A stretch of DNA of 37,606 nucleotides from a virus, in the IMG/VR virus record IMGVR_UViG_3300024262_000010, positions 1 through 37,606 of that record. One strand, 5' to 3'. Of the stretch, positions 374-13,742 are shown in pieces. The notes under the pieces are model-generated. The model worked only from the letters and a program-made list of their open reading frames with translations. It ran no database searches and had not been told where the DNA came from. Every line of letters starts with the position of its first letter. The first letter of the stretch is position 1. A program made the position numbers and the translations under genes.

Positions 374-1018
374 ATGGAAAACAATAAATCAAACATAGCA
401 AAAGCCATTATTAGCGTAATGAAAGACGTTAAAGGAATGGAGAAAAACTCAAAGGTAGGGACGGGAAATCACTCGTATAGTGGAACTAAAGACCAAGACG
501 TTAAGGAGGTTTTTAATGACGCTTTATCTAAACATGGTCTCTGCATTATACCTATCGACATAGCAGATGAAACACAAGTTGACAGATGGGAACAAGAGGA
601 GTTTTACAATGGGAAATCAAACGGTATAAAACAAAAACAAAGCATATTTACTAAGGTAAAAACAAAATATTTGCTGTTACACGAAAGCGGAGAGAGTATT
701 CAATTGTCGGGTTACGGTCATGGTGTAGATTCTCAAGATAAAGGAGCAGGAAAAGCAACAACATACGCTTTAAAGAACTGTTTATTATACACATTCTTAA
801 CCCCAGTAGGTAAGATTGATGATACTGAAACAACCCATAGTGAGGAAATACCAGTTGCAATTAAACCACCAACCAAAAAGAAGTTAGATGCTGATGGATA
901 TGCTTATTTAATGAGTGATAAAGCAACTAATGAAGAAAGATTAAAGGCTTTAAATAGTAGAGATATGACAAACGAACAAATAGAAACTTTAAACTTAATA
1001 TTAGATGGTAAAAAGTAA
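374..1018 (+). CDS. erf: ERF-family single-strand DNA annealing recombinase
   Basis: Essential-recombination-function family protein of 214 residues, the usual size for phage ERF proteins. These bind single-stranded DNA and anneal complementary strands during recombination-dependent replication or genome circularisation. The N-terminal region has the family pattern GNHSYSGTKDQDV around residues 31-43. The diagnostic core lies at 115-143: GHGVDSQDKGAGKA followed by TYALKNCLLYTF, matching the ERF signature of DKA..KA.TYA.K..L...F. The C-terminal third is a charged linker plus a short helical tail. It starts two bases after the preceding stop and overlaps the next gene by 14 nt. A PD-(D/E)XK nuclease and NinG further downstream are plausible functional partners. 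Confidence 0.9.
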   Translation: MENNKSNIAKAIISVMKDVKGMEKNSKVGTGNHSYSGTKDQDVKEVFNDALSKHGLCIIPIDIADETQVDRWEQEEFYNGKSNGIKQKQSIFTKVKTKYLLLHESGESIQLSGYGHGVDSQDKGAGKATTYALKNCLLYTFLTPVGKIDDTETTHSEEIPVAIKPPTKKKLDADGYAYLMSDKATNEERLKALNSRDMTNEQIETLNLILDGKK

Positions 1019-3050: not shown

Positions 3051-3812
3051 ATGAAACTAACGACTATGGCTAAAGACTTACCTTATTTTAAATTTTTCTG
3101 CTCCGAATGGACTGATGGAGACATCACTTTAGAAGACTACCGTATTCAAGGATTGTTTATTAATATTTGCTCATACTATTGGAGTAACAATTGTGATGTA
3201 TCAATAACTAAATTAAAAAAGAAGTTTAAAATTGAATCTGAAACAATTGATTATTTAATAAAAGAAACTTTAATTAAGGTTAAGGGACAAGATATTATAA
3301 TTAGTTTTTTAGATGAACAATTAGATGAAAGGATAGAAACATCAAAAATAAAAAGTAAGGGAGGTAAAGCAAGTGCAGAAGCAAGAAGATTAAAGAAATT
3401 AGAACAAGAAAGCAACAAAGATTTAACAGAAAATGAACATGTGTTAAATTCCTGTTCAACAGAAACTCAACTATTAAGAGAAGATAAGATAAAAGAAGAA
3501 AAGAAAAGAGTATATCACACACACGAAACTTTTATTGAATGGTTTAATGAATGTAGAAAATTTATAAAACTACAATCTAATATTAAAAAACTTTCAACAA
3601 TAGAAAAGCAGCAATTTAAAGAATTAGAAAATACATACACAAAAGAAGATTTTAAAAAAGCATTTAAAAACTTTAGTAGTGATAAATATTACAAAGACAA
3701 TAATTTATTATTTCCTATTCACTTTCTTAAATTAGAGAACTTCACTAAATACTTAAATGCAGAAGTTAAACAAGAATTAACATTAGGTCAAAAATTAAGC
3801 GGAAAACAATGA
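3051..3812 (+). CDS. Replisome organiser / replication initiation-like protein
   Basis: Protein of 253 residues starting MKLTTMAKDLPYFKFF. The N-terminal 90 residues have the compact winged-helix pattern seen in phage replisome organisers: short aromatic start, ITLEDYRIQGLFINICSYYW, then a second helical unit and a basic GGKASAEARR segment. A charged, low-complexity linker follows (residues about 105-160), and the C-terminal domain (LFPIHFLKLENFTKYL) resembles DnaD-like or helicase-loader tails. Such proteins bind the phage origin and deliver the helicase, and the DnaB-like helicase starts within its last codons (4-nt overlap). I chose ATG 3051 because a GGAGG sits 8 nt upstream. Exact family not certain. 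Confidence 0.7.
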   Translation: MKLTTMAKDLPYFKFFCSEWTDGDITLEDYRIQGLFINICSYYWSNNCDVSITKLKKKFKIESETIDYLIKETLIKVKGQDIIISFLDEQLDERIETSKIKSKGGKASAEARRLKKLEQESNKDLTENEHVLNSCSTETQLLREDKIKEEKKRVYHTHETFIEWFNECRKFIKLQSNIKKLSTIEKQQFKELENTYTKEDFKKAFKNFSSDKYYKDNNLLFPIHFLKLENFTKYLNAEVKQELTLGQKLSGKQ

Positions 3813-4726
3813 TATTAAACCAAAACGATATAAACACTTATTTACAAGATTACCACGCTGGTAAAATTGCAATGGGATTAGGGATAGGGGTTGCTTACTT
3901 TGATAACGAGTTAAGATATAAGCAAGGTCAGTTTACAATGATTAACGGCTTAGATAATGTTGGTAAAACAGATTTTATTTTATGGTATGCGTTATGTTTA
4001 TCAGTAAAGCACAATATAAGATGGTGTATTTATTCGGGAGAAAACAAAGGTGGTCAACTTGTTAGAAAATTAATCTCATATCTAACTGGTAAAAGAGTTT
4101 TAAAAATGGAACTTAAAGACGTATTCCACGCTGAAATAAAAATTAAAGAATGGTTTACTTTTATTGATAATAAACCATTTTACAAATTAGAAGAGTTACT
4201 TAAAATATTTAAAGAAGGAAAATTTAACGCTTGTTTGATAGACCCTTTTACTGGATTGGATAGAGAGTTTACTCAATCAGCAAATTATAAATTCTTAAAC
4301 GAATGTAGAAACTTTTGCGAAAATACTAATATAAGCCTTTATGTTAATACTCACGTGGTAACAGAGGCAGCAAGAAGGACTTATTCAGAGAAACACGAAT
4401 TTGCAGACTATCCTTTTCCACCATCAAAAAGCCATAGCGAAGGAGGTCAACCATTTGGCAATAGACCTGATGACTTCTTAACTATCCATAGATTAGTAGG
4501 TCATCCATATATGGGGAACAAAACTTTACTGTATGTTAGAAAGGTAAAAGATACTGAGACTGGTAGTAGAGTTTCTCCGATAGATAGTCCAATATCATTA
4601 GATTTTAATTATGGATTAGGATTTACAATTGAAGGTCAAAACCCTTTAGGTAATGGAGTATTTATTGAGCCTGAATTAAGTGAATTAACCGTAAATAACA
4701 ATTTTGATAACGATGCCCCATTTTAG
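3809..4726 (+). CDS. DnaB-like replicative DNA helicase (RecA-fold ATPase)
   Basis: A 305-residue SF4-type ATPase. Walker A is GLDNVGKT at residues 47-54, a conserved acidic segment SGENKGG at 76-82 follows, Walker B is ACLIDPFTGL around 141-150, and a sensor-like NTHV lies at 180-183. A late KVKDTETG segment near 250 fits the arginine-finger/hairpin region. It lacks the N-terminal primase-interacting domain of full DnaB (usually about 450 aa), which is common in phage versions. Expected role: ring helicase unwinding DNA at the phage fork, loaded by the adjacent replisome organiser, whose stop it overlaps. A RAD55/KaiC-type recombination ATPase is the alternative, but context favours helicase. 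Confidence 0.8.
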   Translation: MILNQNDINTYLQDYHAGKIAMGLGIGVAYFDNELRYKQGQFTMINGLDNVGKTDFILWYALCLSVKHNIRWCIYSGENKGGQLVRKLISYLTGKRVLKMELKDVFHAEIKIKEWFTFIDNKPFYKLEELLKIFKEGKFNACLIDPFTGLDREFTQSANYKFLNECRNFCENTNISLYVNTHVVTEAARRTYSEKHEFADYPFPPSKSHSEGGQPFGNRPDDFLTIHRLVGHPYMGNKTLLYVRKVKDTETGSRVSPIDSPISLDFNYGLGFTIEGQNPLGNGVFIEPELSELTVNNNFDNDAPF

Positions 4727-4934: not shown

Positions 4935-5387
4935 ATGATTATGGAGAAAATTGAAAGAATTTACCACCACCACGATAAGTGGGAGGATTACAAGGCTGGA
5001 TTTTATGATAATATATCTGGTAAAGACAAGGAACTAATGATACAGAAAGTTGTTGAGTTATTTTCTAACCCAAAACTAACAGAGGAATATATGCAGAAAG
5101 CAACAAAAGAATGGTTTTTTAGCTGCGAACATAACCTGACAAATGAATCAATGAATAAGATAGCATATATCGGTCAAGCTGCTTGTTGTTTATATGGGGG
5201 TGTGCCAAATATTATAACAATGTATTCTTGGAAGTTTTTAGATAATAAGTATAGGATAAAATCAGATAAAATAGCAAGTAAAATATTAAAAATATGGACA
5301 CAAGAAAAAAAATATCAAAATATATTAAAAGTTGGGAATCTAAAGGTTACGAAAATGGGATACCAGATGAAGCTCCTTCTGAATTAG
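4935..5387 (+). CDS. Conserved phage protein at the head of the IbrAB-like cassette
   Basis: Protein of up to 150 residues (ATG 4935 or 4941). The conserved-looking core runs from IERIYHHHDKWEDYKAGFY through WFFSCEHNLTNESMNKIAYI and GQAACCLYGGVPNIITMYSW to KIASKILKIW. This matches a widespread small phage protein pattern (W...KAG.Y, then E.S.N..A..GQAA...G.P...T...W..L) for which I know no function. Residues after KIW (about 120 onward) look unrelated to the rest and overlap, in another frame, the next gene by 94 nt. Either the gene simply runs on, or it shifts frame at an A-run into the next ORF. It sits directly before PAPS-reductase and ParB genes, suggesting it belongs to that unit. Confidence 0.75.
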   Translation: MIMEKIERIYHHHDKWEDYKAGFYDNISGKDKELMIQKVVELFSNPKLTEEYMQKATKEWFFSCEHNLTNESMNKIAYIGQAACCLYGGVPNIITMYSWKFLDNKYRIKSDKIASKILKIWTQEKKYQNILKVGNLKVTKMGYQMKLLLN

Positions 5388-5563
5388 AAAAAAGATGTTT
5401 AGTTCCTAGCTATAAAATGATATGCATAGCTTTGATGAGGAATCATAATAATCTTGAAATATTAGGGATTAAAAGAGAGAAGTGTAATATCTACCAAGAA
5501 ATTAAGAGGGAAGAAATTTATAATAGAGATACTAAAAACAAACAATTAAAAATATTCTTATGA
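5294..5563 (+). CDS. Stand-alone DUF3440-tail-like protein, 89 aa
   Basis: Small protein of 89 residues beginning MDTRKKISKYIKSW. The segment KGYENGIPDEAPSELEKR followed by PSYKMICIALMRN matches the C-terminal tail of IbrA/DUF3440 proteins. The same signature appears, diverged, at the end of the neighbouring PAPS-reductase-like protein (CPNWKAVCITIMKN, then GCSRTKDQ, against PSYKMICIALMRN, then GIKREK). It overlaps the previous gene by 94 nt and the next by 4 nt. It could be translated from its own ATG or appended to the upstream protein by -1 frameshifting at 5306-5312. Function unknown; probably a partner or specificity module of the adjacent enzyme. Confidence 0.65.
   Translation: MDTRKKISKYIKSWESKGYENGIPDEAPSELEKRCLVPSYKMICIALMRNHNNLEILGIKREKCNIYQEIKREEIYNRDTKNKQLKIFL
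5306..5312 (+). promoter_or_regulatory. Candidate -1 frameshift site (A AAA AAA)
   Basis: Within an eight-A run (5305-5312), the heptamer 5306-5312 reads A AAA AAA in the frame of the upstream gene, the X XXY YYZ arrangement of known -1 slippery sites. Slipping one base back would join the upstream protein after residue 126 to the DUF3440-tail ORF, giving about 209 residues. No clear stimulatory stem-loop is visible, so this is a candidate only. Confidence 0.3.
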
Positions 5564-6876
5564 TAAAAAAAGGAAATAAAAACGTTTATGATGCTTCTTT
5601 AGATAGATTAAAGGTTGCATTTGACAACTTTGAAAATGTATTAATTGCTTTTTCTTGTGGTAAAGATAGTGGTGTAATGTTAAACTTAGTGTATGAATAT
5701 GCTAAAAAAAGAGATATGCTACACAAAGTAGCATTATACTATCAAGACTATGAAGCTGGATATAAATATACTGATGAGTATGCTTATAGGGTGTTTAGTG
5801 AAATAGATATACCAAAAAAATATTGGCTATGCCTACCTCATTCAGCCGCCTGTTCTGTTTCAATGTATGAGCCAAGATGGATACCTTGGGATTCAGATAA
5901 AAAAGATATATGGGTAAGGGATATGCCAGACCTAGATTGTGTTGTTAATGAAAATAATGTACCTTATGAATTTGTAAAAGGCACAAAAGGTTTTGATGCA
6001 AGGATACAATTTGCTGAATGGTTTGCAAAAGAATATGGTAAGACAGCCGTTATGATTGGACTAAGAGCAGATGAAAGTTTAACTAGGTTAGCAATATTTA
6101 CATCTAAAAATAGGACTAAGATGTATAAGCAATATAAATATACCAAGGAGGTTAATAAACTTACTTACAATTTTTACCCTATTTACGATTGGGATGTTGA
6201 GGATATTTGGGGGGCTAATTATAAGTTCGATTGGGATTACAATAAGATATATGACCTTTATTACCAAGCAGGATTAACTGTTCATCAAATGAGGGTTGCT
6301 AGTCCTTTTCATCAATGTGGTCAGAATGATTTAAAACTATATAGGGTTATAGACCCTAATACTTGGGGCAGAATGGTTGGAAGAGTTAATGGTTGTAATT
6401 TTGGAGGTATTTATGGCGGCACAAGTGGTATGGGGTGGAAAAAAATATCAAAGCCAAATCATTTTACTTGGAAGCAATATGCTGAATTTTTAATTGACAC
6501 TTTACCAAAAGACACAAAAAAAAAATTGATTAGTCATTTAGATAGATTAAAAAATACTTGGTCTGAAAAGGGTTATGGAAGAAATCCAAGAGTAATTGAA
6601 GCAATTAAAAAAGCAGGAATTACAATAGAAGAAACAGAAGAAATAAGTAACTTGTGTAAAAAAGAAGATATTTATAAAATAATAAAAATAAAGGGAGAAT
6701 GGATAGATGAAATAGATATTGAAAACGCAACACCATTTAGACATTGCCCTAACTGGAAAGCAGTTTGTATAACAATAATGAAGAACGACTTTTCATTAAC
6801 ATATATGGGGTGTTCAAGAACTAAAGACCAAAATTTAAAAAAGAAAAATGCATTAAATAAATATAAAAACAATTAA
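5560..6876 (+). CDS. ibrA: PAPS reductase/DUF3440 family protein (IbrA-like)
   Basis: A 438-residue PP-loop ATPase-fold protein of the phosphoadenosine phosphosulfate reductase superfamily. The PP-loop is FSCGKDSGV at residues 31-39 (S.GKDS), followed by the adenylyl-binding region and GLRADESL near 168. The long C-terminal part (YRVIDPNTWGRMVGRVNG, then the tail with CPNWKAVCITIMKN) is the DUF3440 region that defines IbrA-type proteins. E. coli IbrA works with IbrB, a ParB-like protein, and exactly such a gene lies two bases downstream. The fold activates substrates with ATP, and DndC, which puts sulfur into DNA, is a relative. A role in nucleic-acid modification or phage-host regulation is plausible; true sulfate assimilation is unlikely in this context. 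Confidence 0.85.
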   Translation: MIKKGNKNVYDASLDRLKVAFDNFENVLIAFSCGKDSGVMLNLVYEYAKKRDMLHKVALYYQDYEAGYKYTDEYAYRVFSEIDIPKKYWLCLPHSAACSVSMYEPRWIPWDSDKKDIWVRDMPDLDCVVNENNVPYEFVKGTKGFDARIQFAEWFAKEYGKTAVMIGLRADESLTRLAIFTSKNRTKMYKQYKYTKEVNKLTYNFYPIYDWDVEDIWGANYKFDWDYNKIYDLYYQAGLTVHQMRVASPFHQCGQNDLKLYRVIDPNTWGRMVGRVNGCNFGGIYGGTSGMGWKKISKPNHFTWKQYAEFLIDTLPKDTKKKLISHLDRLKNTWSEKGYGRNPRVIEAIKKAGITIEETEEISNLCKKEDIYKIIKIKGEWIDEIDIENATPFRHCPNWKAVCITIMKNDFSLTYMGCSRTKDQNLKKKNALNKYKNN

Positions 6877-6878
6877 TT

Positions 6879-7412
6879 ATGGAAACGAAGAACAATTATT
6901 TATCACCAGTTTACAATGTGAAAAGAATACATATTGATAAAATAAGAGCAAATGCTTATAATCCTAACGCAGTAGCTCCGCCAGAAATGAAACTACTAGA
7001 AACGTCTATCTGGGAGGATGGTTACACTATGCCTGTTGTATGTTATTATATACCAGAGGAAGATATTTATGAGATAGTTGATGGATACCATAGATACACC
7101 ACATTAAAAACTAGTAAAAGGATATTTGAGCGTGAAGAAGGTCATTTACCAGTTGCTGTGATTGAAAAGGATATGTCAAATAGAATGGCATCTACAATTA
7201 GACATAACAGGGCAAGAGGTTCTCACTCTGTTGAGTTAATGAGTAATATTGTTGCTGAATTAGTTGAGAGTGGTATGAGTGATGCTTGGATATTAAGGCA
7301 TATAGGGATGGATAAGGATGAATTATTAAGGCTTAAACAAATAACAGGAATAGCAGCATTATTTAAAGACCACGAATTTAGTGTTTGTTCTGAATTAGAT
7401 ATAAAAAAATAA
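6879..7412 (+). CDS. ibrB: ParB-like nuclease-fold protein (IbrB-like)
   Basis: A 177-residue ParB/Srx-superfamily protein. The N-terminal domain carries IHIDKIRANAYNPN (residues 17-30), the phosphate-binding motif DGYHR at 68-72 and RHNRARGSH at 108-116, with a C-terminal helical domain (residues 120-162, ending LLRLKQITGI). This combination next to a DUF3440 protein identifies the IbrB type. ParB-fold proteins may bind or hydrolyse nucleotides or cleave DNA, and DndB, partner of DndC, has a related DGQHR motif; the actual activity here is unknown. It begins two bases after the IbrA-like stop, so the pair is co-translated. A fragment homologous to its C-terminus occurs at 13177-13353. Confidence 0.85.
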   Translation: METKNNYLSPVYNVKRIHIDKIRANAYNPNAVAPPEMKLLETSIWEDGYTMPVVCYYIPEEDIYEIVDGYHRYTTLKTSKRIFEREEGHLPVAVIEKDMSNRMASTIRHNRARGSHSVELMSNIVAELVESGMSDAWILRHIGMDKDELLRLKQITGIAALFKDHEFSVCSELDIKK

Positions 7413-7416
7413 AGTT

Positions 7417-8034
7417 ATGGATTTACCAAAAAAAGATAAGTATGGAGTAAATAGGCTTTCTTACTCTCAAATATCACTATTTAAAAAAGATAAAGATAGT
7501 TTTTATAAACGATATATTATTGGTGAGGATTTTCAAACAAATGAATATATTGAGTTTGGGACTAAGGTGGGTAATGCTTTAGAAATTAACGATTATTCAA
7601 ACTTTGATTATATTGAACAAGAAACACTAAAGAAAGTAACTAGACTGGATGAATTTGAAAGACCTATATTTTTAAAGTATACAGATTTTTATTTAGTAGG
7701 ATATATAGATACTAATACTTCGGATTTGTCTGAAATAATAGATTATAAAACTGGGGGGCAAAAAAAAGAATTTCAATATATGAATGAGGAATATAATCAA
7801 TTACAAATATATGCTTTAGGCATAAAACAAGAGACAGGATTAGTACCTAAAAAAGCTAGTGTAGAGTTTATTCGAAGAGTAGGTAATCTTTATAGGGGTG
7901 AAAGATTGATGGTTGGAGATGAAGAGCCAATAAAAATTGAGGTAGATTTAAATATAAAAAAACTTCAAAATGTTTATTCAGATATATTAAATACTGCAAT
8001 AGAGATAGATAAGTTCTATAAAGAGAATAAATGA
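7417..8034 (+). CDS. PD-(D/E)XK superfamily nuclease
   Basis: A 205-residue nuclease of the Cas4/RecB-like PD-(D/E)XK group. After an N-terminal RLSYSQISLFKK (typical opening of this group) come GYID with the acidic D98, the core IIDYKTGG with D109-x-K111, and the downstream Q-motif YNQLQIYAL (Gln near 128-130). There is no iron-sulfur cysteine cluster, unlike Cas4. In phages such proteins act as exonucleases processing ends for the annealing protein, so it is a natural partner of ERF. Its position right after the IbrAB-like pair also permits a role in that cassette. It overlaps the next start by 4 nt. Confidence 0.8.
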   Translation: MDLPKKDKYGVNRLSYSQISLFKKDKDSFYKRYIIGEDFQTNEYIEFGTKVGNALEINDYSNFDYIEQETLKKVTRLDEFERPIFLKYTDFYLVGYIDTNTSDLSEIIDYKTGGQKKEFQYMNEEYNQLQIYALGIKQETGLVPKKASVEFIRRVGNLYRGERLMVGDEEPIKIEVDLNIKKLQNVYSDILNTAIEIDKFYKENK

Positions 8035-8276: not shown

Positions 8277-8465
8277 ATGGCAAAGAAAAAAGCAATAGAT
8301 AAGGTAACAGTAAGCAGATTAGATATGTGTTTTAAAATGGCTAATATACAAATGCCCTTATCGCTAATTGATAAAATTATTGATATTGTAGAGTTGATTG
8401 AGGATAAAGGTGGAAAAACATCTTTAAAAGATATGAGCAAGTTAATTGATGAATGGAAAAACTAA
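8277..8465 (+). CDS. Hypothetical helical protein, 62 aa
   Basis: Short protein with a basic start (MAKKKAIDKVTV) and an amphipathic helix rich in Ile/Leu (LSLIDKIIDIVELIEDKGG). No family recognised. Its end overlaps the NinG-like gene by 13 nt. Confidence 0.65.
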   Translation: MAKKKAIDKVTVSRLDMCFKMANIQMPLSLIDKIIDIVELIEDKGGKTSLKDMSKLIDEWKN

Positions 8466-9109
8466 AAGACATTTTAATGAAATGCAAATCTTGTAAAGAA
8501 CAACACGAACCATTCAATAGCCTCGATAATTGGTGCAAGAAAATAGATTGTCAAGTAGCTAAAGGTATGTACTTGCTTGAAAAGAAAAAAGCAAAGGATA
8601 AAAAGGATTGGAATAAGCATAAGTCTAAACGATTACCAGTATTATATCCAAAGAAGTATAAAAGCCTCTTACAATCGCAAATAAACCTATTAGCACGTAA
8701 GATTGATGCTAACTTTAACTACTTGTGTATTGATTGCGGTAAGCCATACGGAAAACAAATCGATGCAGCACATCTTCATAACTCACAAGGCAATGAGAAT
8801 ATAAGATTTAATTTACACAATCTACACTCTGCTAAGTCAGATTGCAACCAGTTCAGCTCGGAACACAAAGTAGGTTATAGAATAGGGATTGAAGCAAGAT
8901 ATGGAAAGGAATATCTAAACTATATTGATAATGAATTACCTTTAGAGTATAAGTATTTAGGATTATTAGATACGGAAGTAGCTGAAAAGTTGGCAATAGT
9001 TAGAAAAATAAACCGAGAATTTGATAATATAGTAAAAGATTTAGAATTAAATTCAATAGATATGCGTAGTTATTTCAATGGTTTGATAGGTATATATAAA
9101 AATAATTAA
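8453..9109 (+). CDS. ninG: NinG/Rap-like recombination protein
   Basis: A 218-residue protein of the lambda NinG (Rap) type. It has an N-terminal pair of zinc-binding-like cysteine groups (CKSCKEQHEPF, later WCKKIDC) and, after a basic linker, the second domain with CIDCGK (C92, C95), DAAHLH (104-109) and a late SDCNQF, the family pattern of C..CGK....DA.HF. Lambda Rap is a structure-specific endonuclease acting on recombination intermediates such as Holliday junctions and D-loops. Here it closes the replication/recombination block that contains ERF and a PD-(D/E)XK nuclease. An alternative start at ATG 8477 would remove eight residues. Confidence 0.85.
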   Translation: MEKLKDILMKCKSCKEQHEPFNSLDNWCKKIDCQVAKGMYLLEKKKAKDKKDWNKHKSKRLPVLYPKKYKSLLQSQINLLARKIDANFNYLCIDCGKPYGKQIDAAHLHNSQGNENIRFNLHNLHSAKSDCNQFSSEHKVGYRIGIEARYGKEYLNYIDNELPLEYKYLGLLDTEVAEKLAIVRKINREFDNIVKDLELNSIDMRSYFNGLIGIYKNN

Positions 9110-12028: not shown

Positions 12029-12310
12029 ATGAGCATTATATCAATAATCGAGGGAAATTTAAGGTACGCTTTCAATATTCGGTCAACTATAATGGTTTAC
12101 AGAGAGGAGGAATACTGTATGAATTGTCCAATTGCTCATACTAACGGAAAGTACACAGGTCAATGTAATAAAGAATTAGGTGGCTGTGGATGTGGCGTTG
12201 GTGCAAAAACATCTCAAAACAAGGATGTTTGTCCTAAAGGATTTTGGGGTAGTAATTGGTTTAAGCCCGAATTATTCAAAGAATTTTTAAACGAAGAAAA
12301 TGGCAAGTAG
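12029..12310 (+). CDS. Cys-rich conserved phage protein, 93 aa
   Basis: Protein of 93 residues with a cysteine-rich core: CMNCPIAH, GQCNKELGGCGCGVGAKT and VCPKGFWG. This resembles a family of phage proteins with C..CP...C...GCGC...KT....CP.G.W whose function I do not know; a structural zinc site is likely. The N-terminal helix (IIEGNLRYAFNIRSTI) fits the full-length family, so I prefer ATG 12029 even though an in-frame ATG at 12119 has an AGGAGG 8-9 nt upstream. It overlaps the SEC-C gene by 11 nt. Confidence 0.75.
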   Translation: MSIISIIEGNLRYAFNIRSTIMVYREEEYCMNCPIAHTNGKYTGQCNKELGGCGCGVGAKTSQNKDVCPKGFWGSNWFKPELFKEFLNEENGK

Positions 12311-12506
12311 TAAAAGACGTGGAAAACAAGCGTATCTTCCACAGGAAAATGAGTATAAACCACAGTTCAATTCTAAAGGTCAATTTAGTGGTTTAAAAAG
12401 ACATTATCTTAAATTTGAGCCTAATGGTCAATGTCCATGTAATAGTGGCTTAAAGTACAAGAAATGCTGTAAAGGAAAAAAGGAATATTTTATTAAAGAT
12501 AAATAA
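12300..12506 (+). CDS. SEC-C motif mini-protein
   Basis: A 68-residue protein that is little more than a basic N-terminal tail (SSKRRGKQAYL) and a C-terminal SEC-C zinc-binding motif, CPCNSGLKYKKCC at residues 45-57 (C45, C47, C56, C57). SEC-C motifs, named after SecA, bind zinc and mediate protein-protein contacts. Stand-alone phage versions have no defined role. It overlaps its upstream neighbour and lies one base before the ParB-like gene, placing it in the pre-terminase group. Confidence 0.75.
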   Translation: MASSKRRGKQAYLPQENEYKPQFNSKGQFSGLKRHYLKFEPNGQCPCNSGLKYKKCCKGKKEYFIKDK

Positions 12507-12507
12507 C

Positions 12508-13086
12508 ATGGAAATTAAAGAAATACAAATCGGTAGAATAAAAAACAATGAAGAAAATCCTCGTATAATTTCAGAGGAAAACTTTCAGAAATTAGTTAAG
12601 CAAATAGTCGAAATGCCATCAATGAATAAATTAAGAGAAATCTTAGTAGATGAAGATATGGTGGCTTTAGGTGGTAATCAGAGACTAAAAGCGTATCGAG
12701 AGGCAGGATGGAAGAAAATACAGATTAAAAAAGTTTCTCCCGAAGATTTCGCCTTTGAGTTAAGTCAAGAGGGTGCAACATGGGAAAAGGTAAAAAAGAG
12801 AATTATAGTTGCTGATAACAAGGAATTTGGAGAATGGGCTAAAAGTTTGATTATCGATTTCGGATTCGAGGAAACTATGGATGAGGTTGGAATTGGTAGA
12901 GAGGAATGGGATGAGGAAGAAATATCTTTTGAGCCAAATTACAATCCATCAGCATCTAATCATAAAATGACACAGGAACAGATGGACAAAAAAGAAGAGG
13001 TACTAAAAGCACAAATGACAATGGAGCATACGACTAAAAAAGTTGTTTGTCCTCATTGTTTTGAAGAATTTGAAATAGATAAATAA
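12508..13086 (+). CDS. ParB-like nuclease-domain protein with terminal Cys pair
   Basis: A 192-residue protein with a ParB N-terminal-type domain: EIQIGRIKNNEENPRI (residues 5-20), then VALGGNQRLKAYREAG with the GGNQR motif at 55-59. It differs from the IbrB-like protein, which has DGYHR. Residues 90-135 form a helical region, and the C-terminus ends in CPHCFEEFEI (C181, C184), half of a zinc-ribbon-like motif. ParB-domain proteins are common just upstream of phage terminases, sometimes linked to methylases, but none is present here. It may bind DNA near the packaging site. Its stop overlaps the next ATG. Confidence 0.8.
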   Translation: MEIKEIQIGRIKNNEENPRIISEENFQKLVKQIVEMPSMNKLREILVDEDMVALGGNQRLKAYREAGWKKIQIKKVSPEDFAFELSQEGATWEKVKKRIIVADNKEFGEWAKSLIIDFGFEETMDEVGIGREEWDEEEISFEPNYNPSASNHKMTQEQMDKKEEVLKAQMTMEHTTKKVVCPHCFEEFEIDK

Positions 13087-13190
13087 TGATTGCTACAGTA
13101 GTTAAAAATATCGAAAGAAATAAATGGCAGTTTGCTAAATCGATGTCAGATATTCCTCATTATTATACCGTAAGAAAATGGGTGGAGTGA
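13086..13190 (+). CDS. Truncated phage gene, 34 aa (probable remnant)
   Basis: A 34-residue ORF, start overlapping the ParB stop, reading MIATVVKNIERNKWQFAKSM then SDIPHYYTVRKWVE. It resembles the N-terminus of a longer phage family (N....W.FAK.MP..PH.Y..R..W) that normally continues well past this point; here TGA ends it right after the conserved R.W. The following bases in another frame encode the end of an IbrB-like protein, so the missing part was probably lost in a deletion. Confidence 0.55.
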   Translation: MIATVVKNIERNKWQFAKSMSDIPHYYTVRKWVE

Positions 13191-13353
13191 TGTAGATATT
13201 TGTAATGAATTAGGAATGGAGGCAGAAGAACTATTGAAGCTGAAACATATTACAGGATTTAGTAAACTATTCGCTGATACGGAATACAGAAAGGCTTGGG
13301 AAACTAACCACCAAATAAAGCTAAGAAAAGAGCATGGTGTTAAAACTATTTAA
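13177..13353 (+). pseudogene. C-terminal fragment of a second IbrB-like ParB protein
   Basis: In the frame open from 13174 to TAA 13351-13353, the translation NGWSDVDICNELGMEAEELL continues with KLKHITGFSKLFADTEYRKA and ends KLRKEHGVKTI. By hand alignment it matches residues 131-162 of the IbrB-like protein at 6879-7412 at 16 of 32 positions (shared G.SD, I, GM, ELL, LK, ITG, LF). There is no N-terminal ParB domain and no good start; ATG 13216 would give 45 residues. It overlaps the end of the truncated gene at 13086-13190. Best read as the surviving tail of a second ibrB-type gene. Confidence 0.65.
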
Positions 13354-13355
13354 TC

Positions 13356-13742
13356 ATGGCGTACGATAAACAAGAATTATTTGAAAAGGCAAAAGAGGTA
13401 ACGATATCGAGAAAACTATTTTTCGTTGAGGATATAGTCGCATTCATGCCATGCACAAAGTCAACTTTCTATGAGCATTTTCCAATTGATTCAGACGAAA
13501 TGAACTGTATAAAAGGACTTATTGAGGAAAATAAGATAAACGTCAAGGTAACTATTCGGTCTAAATTATTAAGGGGTAAAGGAATGGAATTGATTGCATT
13601 GTATAAATTGATAGGTACTGATGAGGAACGTATTAGATTATCTCAACAGCATGTTGACCACACAACTAAAGGAAATGAGATGCAACCAAATATTATCAAC
13701 TTAGGAGTTGGAATAAATCCTGATGAGGATAAGGATAAATAG
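13356..13742 (+). CDS. terS: Terminase small subunit (Bacteroidota phage type)
   Basis: A 128-residue protein immediately before the large terminase. The segments FFVEDIVAFMPCTKSTFYEHFP (an HTH-like unit near residues 22-43), KINVKVTIRSKLLRG and IALYKLIGTDEERIRLSQQH match the short terminase small subunit type that I know from Bacteroidota phages. It should recognise the packaging site and stimulate the large subunit. A short C-terminal acidic tail (NPDEDKDK) follows. It begins three bases after the pseudogene stop. Assignment rests on motif resemblance plus position. Confidence 0.75.
   Translation: MAYDKQELFEKAKEVTISRKLFFVEDIVAFMPCTKSTFYEHFPIDSDEMNCIKGLIEENKINVKVTIRSKLLRGKGMELIALYKLIGTDEERIRLSQQHVDHTTKGNEMQPNIINLGVGINPDEDKDK

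Follow-up and report, generated by a model that had tools for sequence, protein, structure and literature searches.

A recurrent phage module that joins IbrA and IbrB to a conserved small protein and a DUF3440 tail protein

What does an IbrA/IbrB-like gene pair do in the replication region of a phage, and which of the genes around it belong to it? The question is raised by a 37.6 kb IMG/VR virus record (IMGVR_UViG_3300024262_000010; 37,606 nucleotides), here called the window. The window encodes an HK97-type portal, a PBSX-type terminase and tape-measure genes, and its replication/recombination region carries a plus-strand cassette of four genes: a small protein of 150 amino acids (aa), S (4935..5387); a stand-alone DUF3440 C-terminal module of the GIPDEAP type, T (5294..5563, 89 aa); the PP-loop protein IbrA with a long DUF3440 region of its own (5560..6876, 438 aa); and the ParB/sulfiredoxin-fold protein IbrB (6879..7412, 177 aa). 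The reading frames of S and T share 94 bases and those of T and IbrA share 4, and two bases separate IbrA from IbrB, as is expected for a co-expressed run; a promoter scan of the cassette region gave nothing exceeding shuffled controls. The first-pass annotation had grouped these genes with a PD-(D/E)XK nuclease just behind them (7417..8034, plus strand). All five open reading frames (ORFs) are present with the position and strand given there, and SCGKDS (IbrA residues 32-37, codons 5653..5670 of the plus strand), DGYHR (IbrB residues 68-72) and the two-base gap are each legible in the sequence. Our analysis establishes S-T-IbrA-IbrB as a recurrent, real unit, and DNA modification by this module is plausible.

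Profile searches gathered 251 loci, and 123 viral loci were kept after non-redundancy filtering. S, T, IbrA and IbrB stand together in 15/15 viral contigs that hold close IbrA relatives, and a set so conserved excludes a chance arrangement. None of the 141 S genes is more than 357 bp away from a match to IbrA or IbrB, and the S-bearing phages span several bacterial phyla. Among isolated phages, S was found in six records, from XCL1123 (host Pseudoalteromonas), Amjad_SA (Pseudomonas), Mwe-JY13 (Microcystis), and Gaia (two records) and Nebkiss (both Mycobacterium), in all of which it is accompanied by the tail, IbrA and IbrB. Isolated phages in which IbrAB modules can be tested are thereby named. 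IbrA and IbrB as such, a PP-loop and DUF3440 enzyme with an adjacent ParB-like protein, are known and widely annotated; the phage records that contain them number more than 200, and many bacterial genomes have them too. S was absent from the plasmids searched, though IbrAB occurs on plasmids, and from 80 bacterial-genome loci carrying IbrAB. A 114 kb phage contig (L067) has two IbrA and two IbrB genes close together.

The proposal that all five genes form one functional unit thus holds in part. The neighbourhood comparison it called for links S and T clearly to the pair in other genomes; the nuclease is variable in its presence and was dismissed as a fifth member on that ground. It belongs to PDDEXK_1 by profile match (PF12705, 4e-8; also phrog_69 exonuclease). 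A match to the nuclease is present in 10/15 of the close-relative contigs, in one of them upstream rather than downstream, and its family lies near only 8/123 non-redundant viral loci. Elsewhere its position is taken by unrelated PD-(D/E)XK exonucleases or YqaJ. Since the same genome encodes an Erf-type single-strand annealing protein (374..1018, plus strand; PF04404, 7.5e-9; phrog_155), the simplest reading is a recombination exonuclease, likely the partner of Erf.

S is recognised by the motif SCEHNLTN...N..AYIGQAACC. Pfam and other profile searches gave no convincing family match, and none of the PADLOC models matched S or IbrB. Its AlphaFold model is helical throughout (predicted local distance difference test, pLDDT, 91.6; predicted template modelling score, pTM, 0.82); a PDB search with this model found no match at E 0.001 or better, and the single fold relative in BFVD is an unnamed viral protein (A0A649V0K8). 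On the model, S is apparently a new, unannotated helical fold, and it could act as a marker of the IbrAB module.

The similarity of T is confined to the end of DUF3440 (PF11922 positions 145-177, E 0.005; phrog_15645, 4e-6), and it aligns with the C-terminal end of the shorter kind of IbrA that Amjad_SA, Mwe-JY13 and CV-1-33 encode. Wherever the contig extends far enough, the gene right after S carries a GIPDEAP-type tail; loci that appeared tail-less under the initial pattern have variant tail motifs. In 37 non-redundant viral loci this tail is fused to the IbrA that follows S, and in 50 a separate T follows S in addition to a long IbrA with its own tail. The gene orders are S-IbrA(t)-IbrB (28 loci), IbrA-IbrB-S-T (25), S-T-IbrA-IbrB (19, the order of the window) and IbrB-S-IbrA(t) (8). 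About six changes account for the stand-alone state of T on the tree of IbrA bodies. On these alignments T is a split-off copy of what in other phages is a domain of IbrA itself, a movable part that would act in cis or, when separate, in trans. We considered whether a programmed frameshift in the A8 run near 5310, where the -1 frame would suit, might link T to S, and dismissed this: the 50 separate-T loci show two frame relations (34 and 16), and because both occur S and T are more likely ordinary overlapping genes.

IbrA matches PF11922/DUF3440 (5e-59), PF01507 (7e-11) and phrog_2302 (5e-98). Its S-x-G-K-D-S loop is invariant across 215 IbrA sequences, as are dozens of further residues, which implies an enzyme. 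The AlphaFold model (pLDDT 87) has its nearest PDB folds in adenosine phosphosulfate (APS) and phosphoadenosine phosphosulfate (PAPS) reductases, ATP sulfurylase, FAD synthase, GMP synthetase and TilS, a PP-loop enzyme that modifies tRNA; these relatives use ATP-pyrophosphatase chemistry or derive from enzymes that do. Family scans gave no match of IbrA to the asparagine-synthetase family. Publicly, IbrA is annotated as PAPS reductase, and together with the fold match this would suit an auxiliary role in host sulfate assimilation. We regard such a role as highly improbable: the cysH model scores 21 bits against a cut-off of 165, the S-x-GKDS loop is intact as in ATP pyrophosphatases, none of the 215 sequences' cysteine columns is invariant (the best reaches 92%, the next 66%), and IbrA is constantly linked to a ParB-fold protein.

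Sulfur transfer of the DndC kind, yielding phosphorothioate or a thio-base in phage DNA, has more to recommend it and is still very unlikely. DndC profiles match IbrA over about 80 residues (E 1e-8), a partial match, and the likeness to DndC was remarked on by the authors of a mycobacterial prophage study (PMC8092301). The NCBIfam model for DndC (TIGR03183), however, gives 24.9 bits over 70 residues only, with a cut-off of 290. The paired cysteines reported for DndC (PMC10853773) are missing from IbrA, and the sole cysteine column above 70% in the 215 sequences accepts Ala, Ser or Thr in some members, which disfavours sulfur transfer; nor was a DndD- or DndE-like gene recognised beside IbrAB, and IbrB matches no PADLOC model. 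The analogy to phosphorothioation drawn by the first-pass annotation is weakened by the lack of this dyad.

IbrB, the constant partner of IbrA, matches the ParB-like family phrog_2159 (7e-77) and shows the ParB_N fold (PF02195, 3e-5; at 24.4 bits slightly below the curated cut-off of 26.3). It carries the motifs DGYHR and TIRHNRARG and a helix-turn-helix-like C-terminal segment, and has weak PDB and profile matches to Noc, ParB and the serine kinases SbnI and SerK. In the window, two short ORFs that overlap in different frames (13086-13353) lie just upstream of the gene at 13356, the second of which (13174-13311) matches IbrB at its helix-turn-helix end (E 3.6e-13); the two look like a single small gene broken by a one-base shift or like a second IbrB-type domain. 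A second, distinct ParB-like protein lies near the terminase (12508-13086; phrog_620, 1.5e-13).

A helix-turn-helix of the DNA-binding type would also be at home in a transcriptional co-activator, and co-activators of prophage gene expression is what IbrA and IbrB are annotated as. They would then turn on phage or prophage genes without modifying DNA, and S and T would be co-regulators. In E. coli, moreover, the regulator YbdO/CitR governs ybdNM alongside citrate genes (PMC9068703). We nevertheless consider plain co-activation quite unlikely. The invariant PP-loop and the many other invariant residues of IbrA imply an enzyme, an enzyme of the cupin type fused to IbrB (see below) would be odd for a plain activator, and activation could itself result from DNA modification.

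The accessory genes are exchanged in a telling way. Of 26 viral IbrAB loci that lack S, 23 have a SNF2-like helicase (PF00176, 3.5e-15) alongside, versus 2/87 with S. Corrected for the tree, this exclusivity rests on about four independent pairs (sign test p 0.125) and has the same direction in all informative ones. Isolated phages fall on both sides: phiAQ113, FCL-2, D4276, CHPC877, Pika and phiFN37 have the helicase and no S, while XCL1123, Amjad_SA, Mwe-JY13 and Gaia have S and no helicase. The gene set is IbrA, cupin-IbrB, S and T in Gaia, IbrB, S and a tail-fused IbrA in Amjad_SA, and helicase, IbrA and IbrB in Pika and CHPC877. Neither is present in CHPC1230, PhiR5_2, CV-1-33, L338C and E. 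coli ybdNM, nor in 31/65 bacterial-genome loci. Of the 25 loci ordered IbrA-IbrB-S-T, 24 have an ectoine-synthase-family cupin (PF06339), either placed between IbrA and IbrB or fused to IbrB; loci with S ahead of IbrA seldom or never have it. In loci L012-L015 the slot between IbrA and IbrB holds a methyltransferase-like gene; in the window it is empty. Fusion of the cupin to the N-terminus of IbrB was seen in 11 non-redundant viral loci (L141, L157, L020 and others). A conserved protein of ~140 aa adjoins IbrA in 27 loci without S (e.g. L240:7583-7990, L232:7564-7977); it is acetyltransferase-like by eye, and a Pfam search gave no match. In Streptococcus phage D4276 (L401), one block between lysin and cro holds both helicase-IbrA-IbrB and acrIIA5, an anti-CRISPR gene.

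Could the target be something other than phage DNA? As a counter-defence or host-takeover system, the module would act on host nucleic acid, tRNA, nucleotides or a defence protein. The neighbourhood of AcrIIA5 in D4276, the placing of IbrA under host takeover in PHROGs and the presence of TilS among its fold matches would all suit such a function, and ParB/Srx proteins may be nucleases or NTPases (PMC10853773, PMC12839542). Yet the loci showed no regular neighbour with a role in defence or anti-defence, the usual location is the replication/recombination region, and the SNF2-like motor of the helicase-bearing (type 1) cassettes points to DNA. We consider a target of this kind unlikely.

The reading we prefer, to which we assign a probability of roughly 0.5, is that phage DNA is modified in an ATP-dependent way, IbrB doing the targeting while S and T serve in docking or specificity. 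The four proteins would constitute one phage module. Within it IbrA, of the ATP-using PP-loop/PAPS-reductase fold, most likely adenylates, i.e. activates, a group on DNA; IbrB would bind DNA, and probably also nucleotide, and direct IbrA to its target; and T and S would together form the docking or specificity unit, in place of which type 1 cassettes would use the SNF2-like DNA motor. The end product would most likely be phage DNA whose modification makes it resistant to restriction by the host. The loci directly show the gene content, its linkage, the fusions and swaps of the tail, the invariant ATP loop and the fold assignments; DNA as the substrate, its adenylation, the parts played by S and T and the protection from restriction are inferred. 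A precedent is the AMP-forming ligase CmoY, a homologue of asparagine synthetase, which hypermodifies phage DNA and often has ParB-domain genes nearby (PMC12783734). A more specific version is tentative and, in our estimate, rather doubtful: IbrA, with its PAPS-reductase fold, would work as a ligase or adenylase on DNA bases, attaching a small group to phage DNA or rearranging one there. IbrB would guide it, the DNA would be presented by S/T or the SNF2-like motor, and in some loci the ectoine-synthase-like cupin fused to IbrB would process the attached group further. If true, this would be a new family of DNA hypermodification built from interchangeable parts.

Several points weigh against DNA modification by the module, the small number of tree-corrected helicase/S pairs among them. 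The original observation on IbrA and IbrB in E. coli is reportedly one of gene activation. A demonstration of DNA modification in any IbrAB phage was not found in the literature searched, and the proteins scanned included no recognised handle-making enzyme. The window lacks a PF01555 or PF00145 methyltransferase, and methyltransferases are no rarer in IbrAB phages (9/41) than in IbrAB-negative phages that bear NinG (4/20; p 1.0). Replacement between IbrAB and DNA methyltransferases was first compared in terminase relatives of the window (L256-L312): 11/16 have a methyltransferase, several of these 2-10 kb upstream of the terminase, and none has IbrB, so that the contrast with IbrAB phages (9/41) reaches p 0.0016. 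Because the independent NinG control gave no difference, this contrast reflects the phage lineage of the terminase relatives, and a stand-in role has no general support.

The surroundings of the cassette are those of a phage replication region. On the plus strand, a DnaB/primase-helicase-like ATPase precedes it (3809..4726; phrog_18375, 1e-22) and a NinG/Rap-like junction nuclease follows it (8453..9109; PF05766, 9e-21). Further off, a 68-aa protein (12300-12506) has a SEC-C-like zinc motif, CPCNSGLKYKKCC, judged by eye only, and a NUMOD4-like domain lies at 1842-2153 (6e-4, below the curated cut-off); such domains usually accompany homing endonucleases.

How does the module compare with known systems? 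No description of the S/T module, the helicase alternation or the cupin fusion, and no paper on IbrAB biochemistry, was found in the literature searched, most subscription journals lying outside that search. With DndC/DndB it shares the combination of a PAPS-reductase-fold partner and a ParB-superfamily partner with a DGxHR-type motif; the missing cysteine dyad, the partial DndC match, the lack of a PADLOC match for IbrB and the lack of a recognised DndD or DndE set it apart. CmoX/CmoY resembles it through CmoY, which works on phage DNA in an ATP-dependent way as proposed for IbrA, and through ParB-domain genes nearby (PMC12783734), whereas IbrA belongs to the PAPS-reductase/DUF3440 branch and the window has no C5-methyltransferase (PF00145). 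SbnI and SerK share the ParB/sulfiredoxin fold with IbrB and a similar DGxHRY segment (DGVHRY in SbnI), but the similarity is weak, covers part of the fold only and leaves a different C-terminal part in IbrB. E. coli IbrA/IbrB, and likewise the chromosomal YbdN/YbdM, are homologous to the window pair, with adjacent genes and the same domains. In contrast to the window, K-12 ybdNM comes without S, a stand-alone T or a helicase, and YbdN is a short IbrA whose variant tail lacks GIPDEAP. Across the loci, IbrA and IbrB come in a small number of defined modules whose partners are interchangeable (SNF2-like motor, S plus tail, ectoine-synthase-like cupin), so that what had been loosely described as co-activators can now be tested as a system of several proteins.

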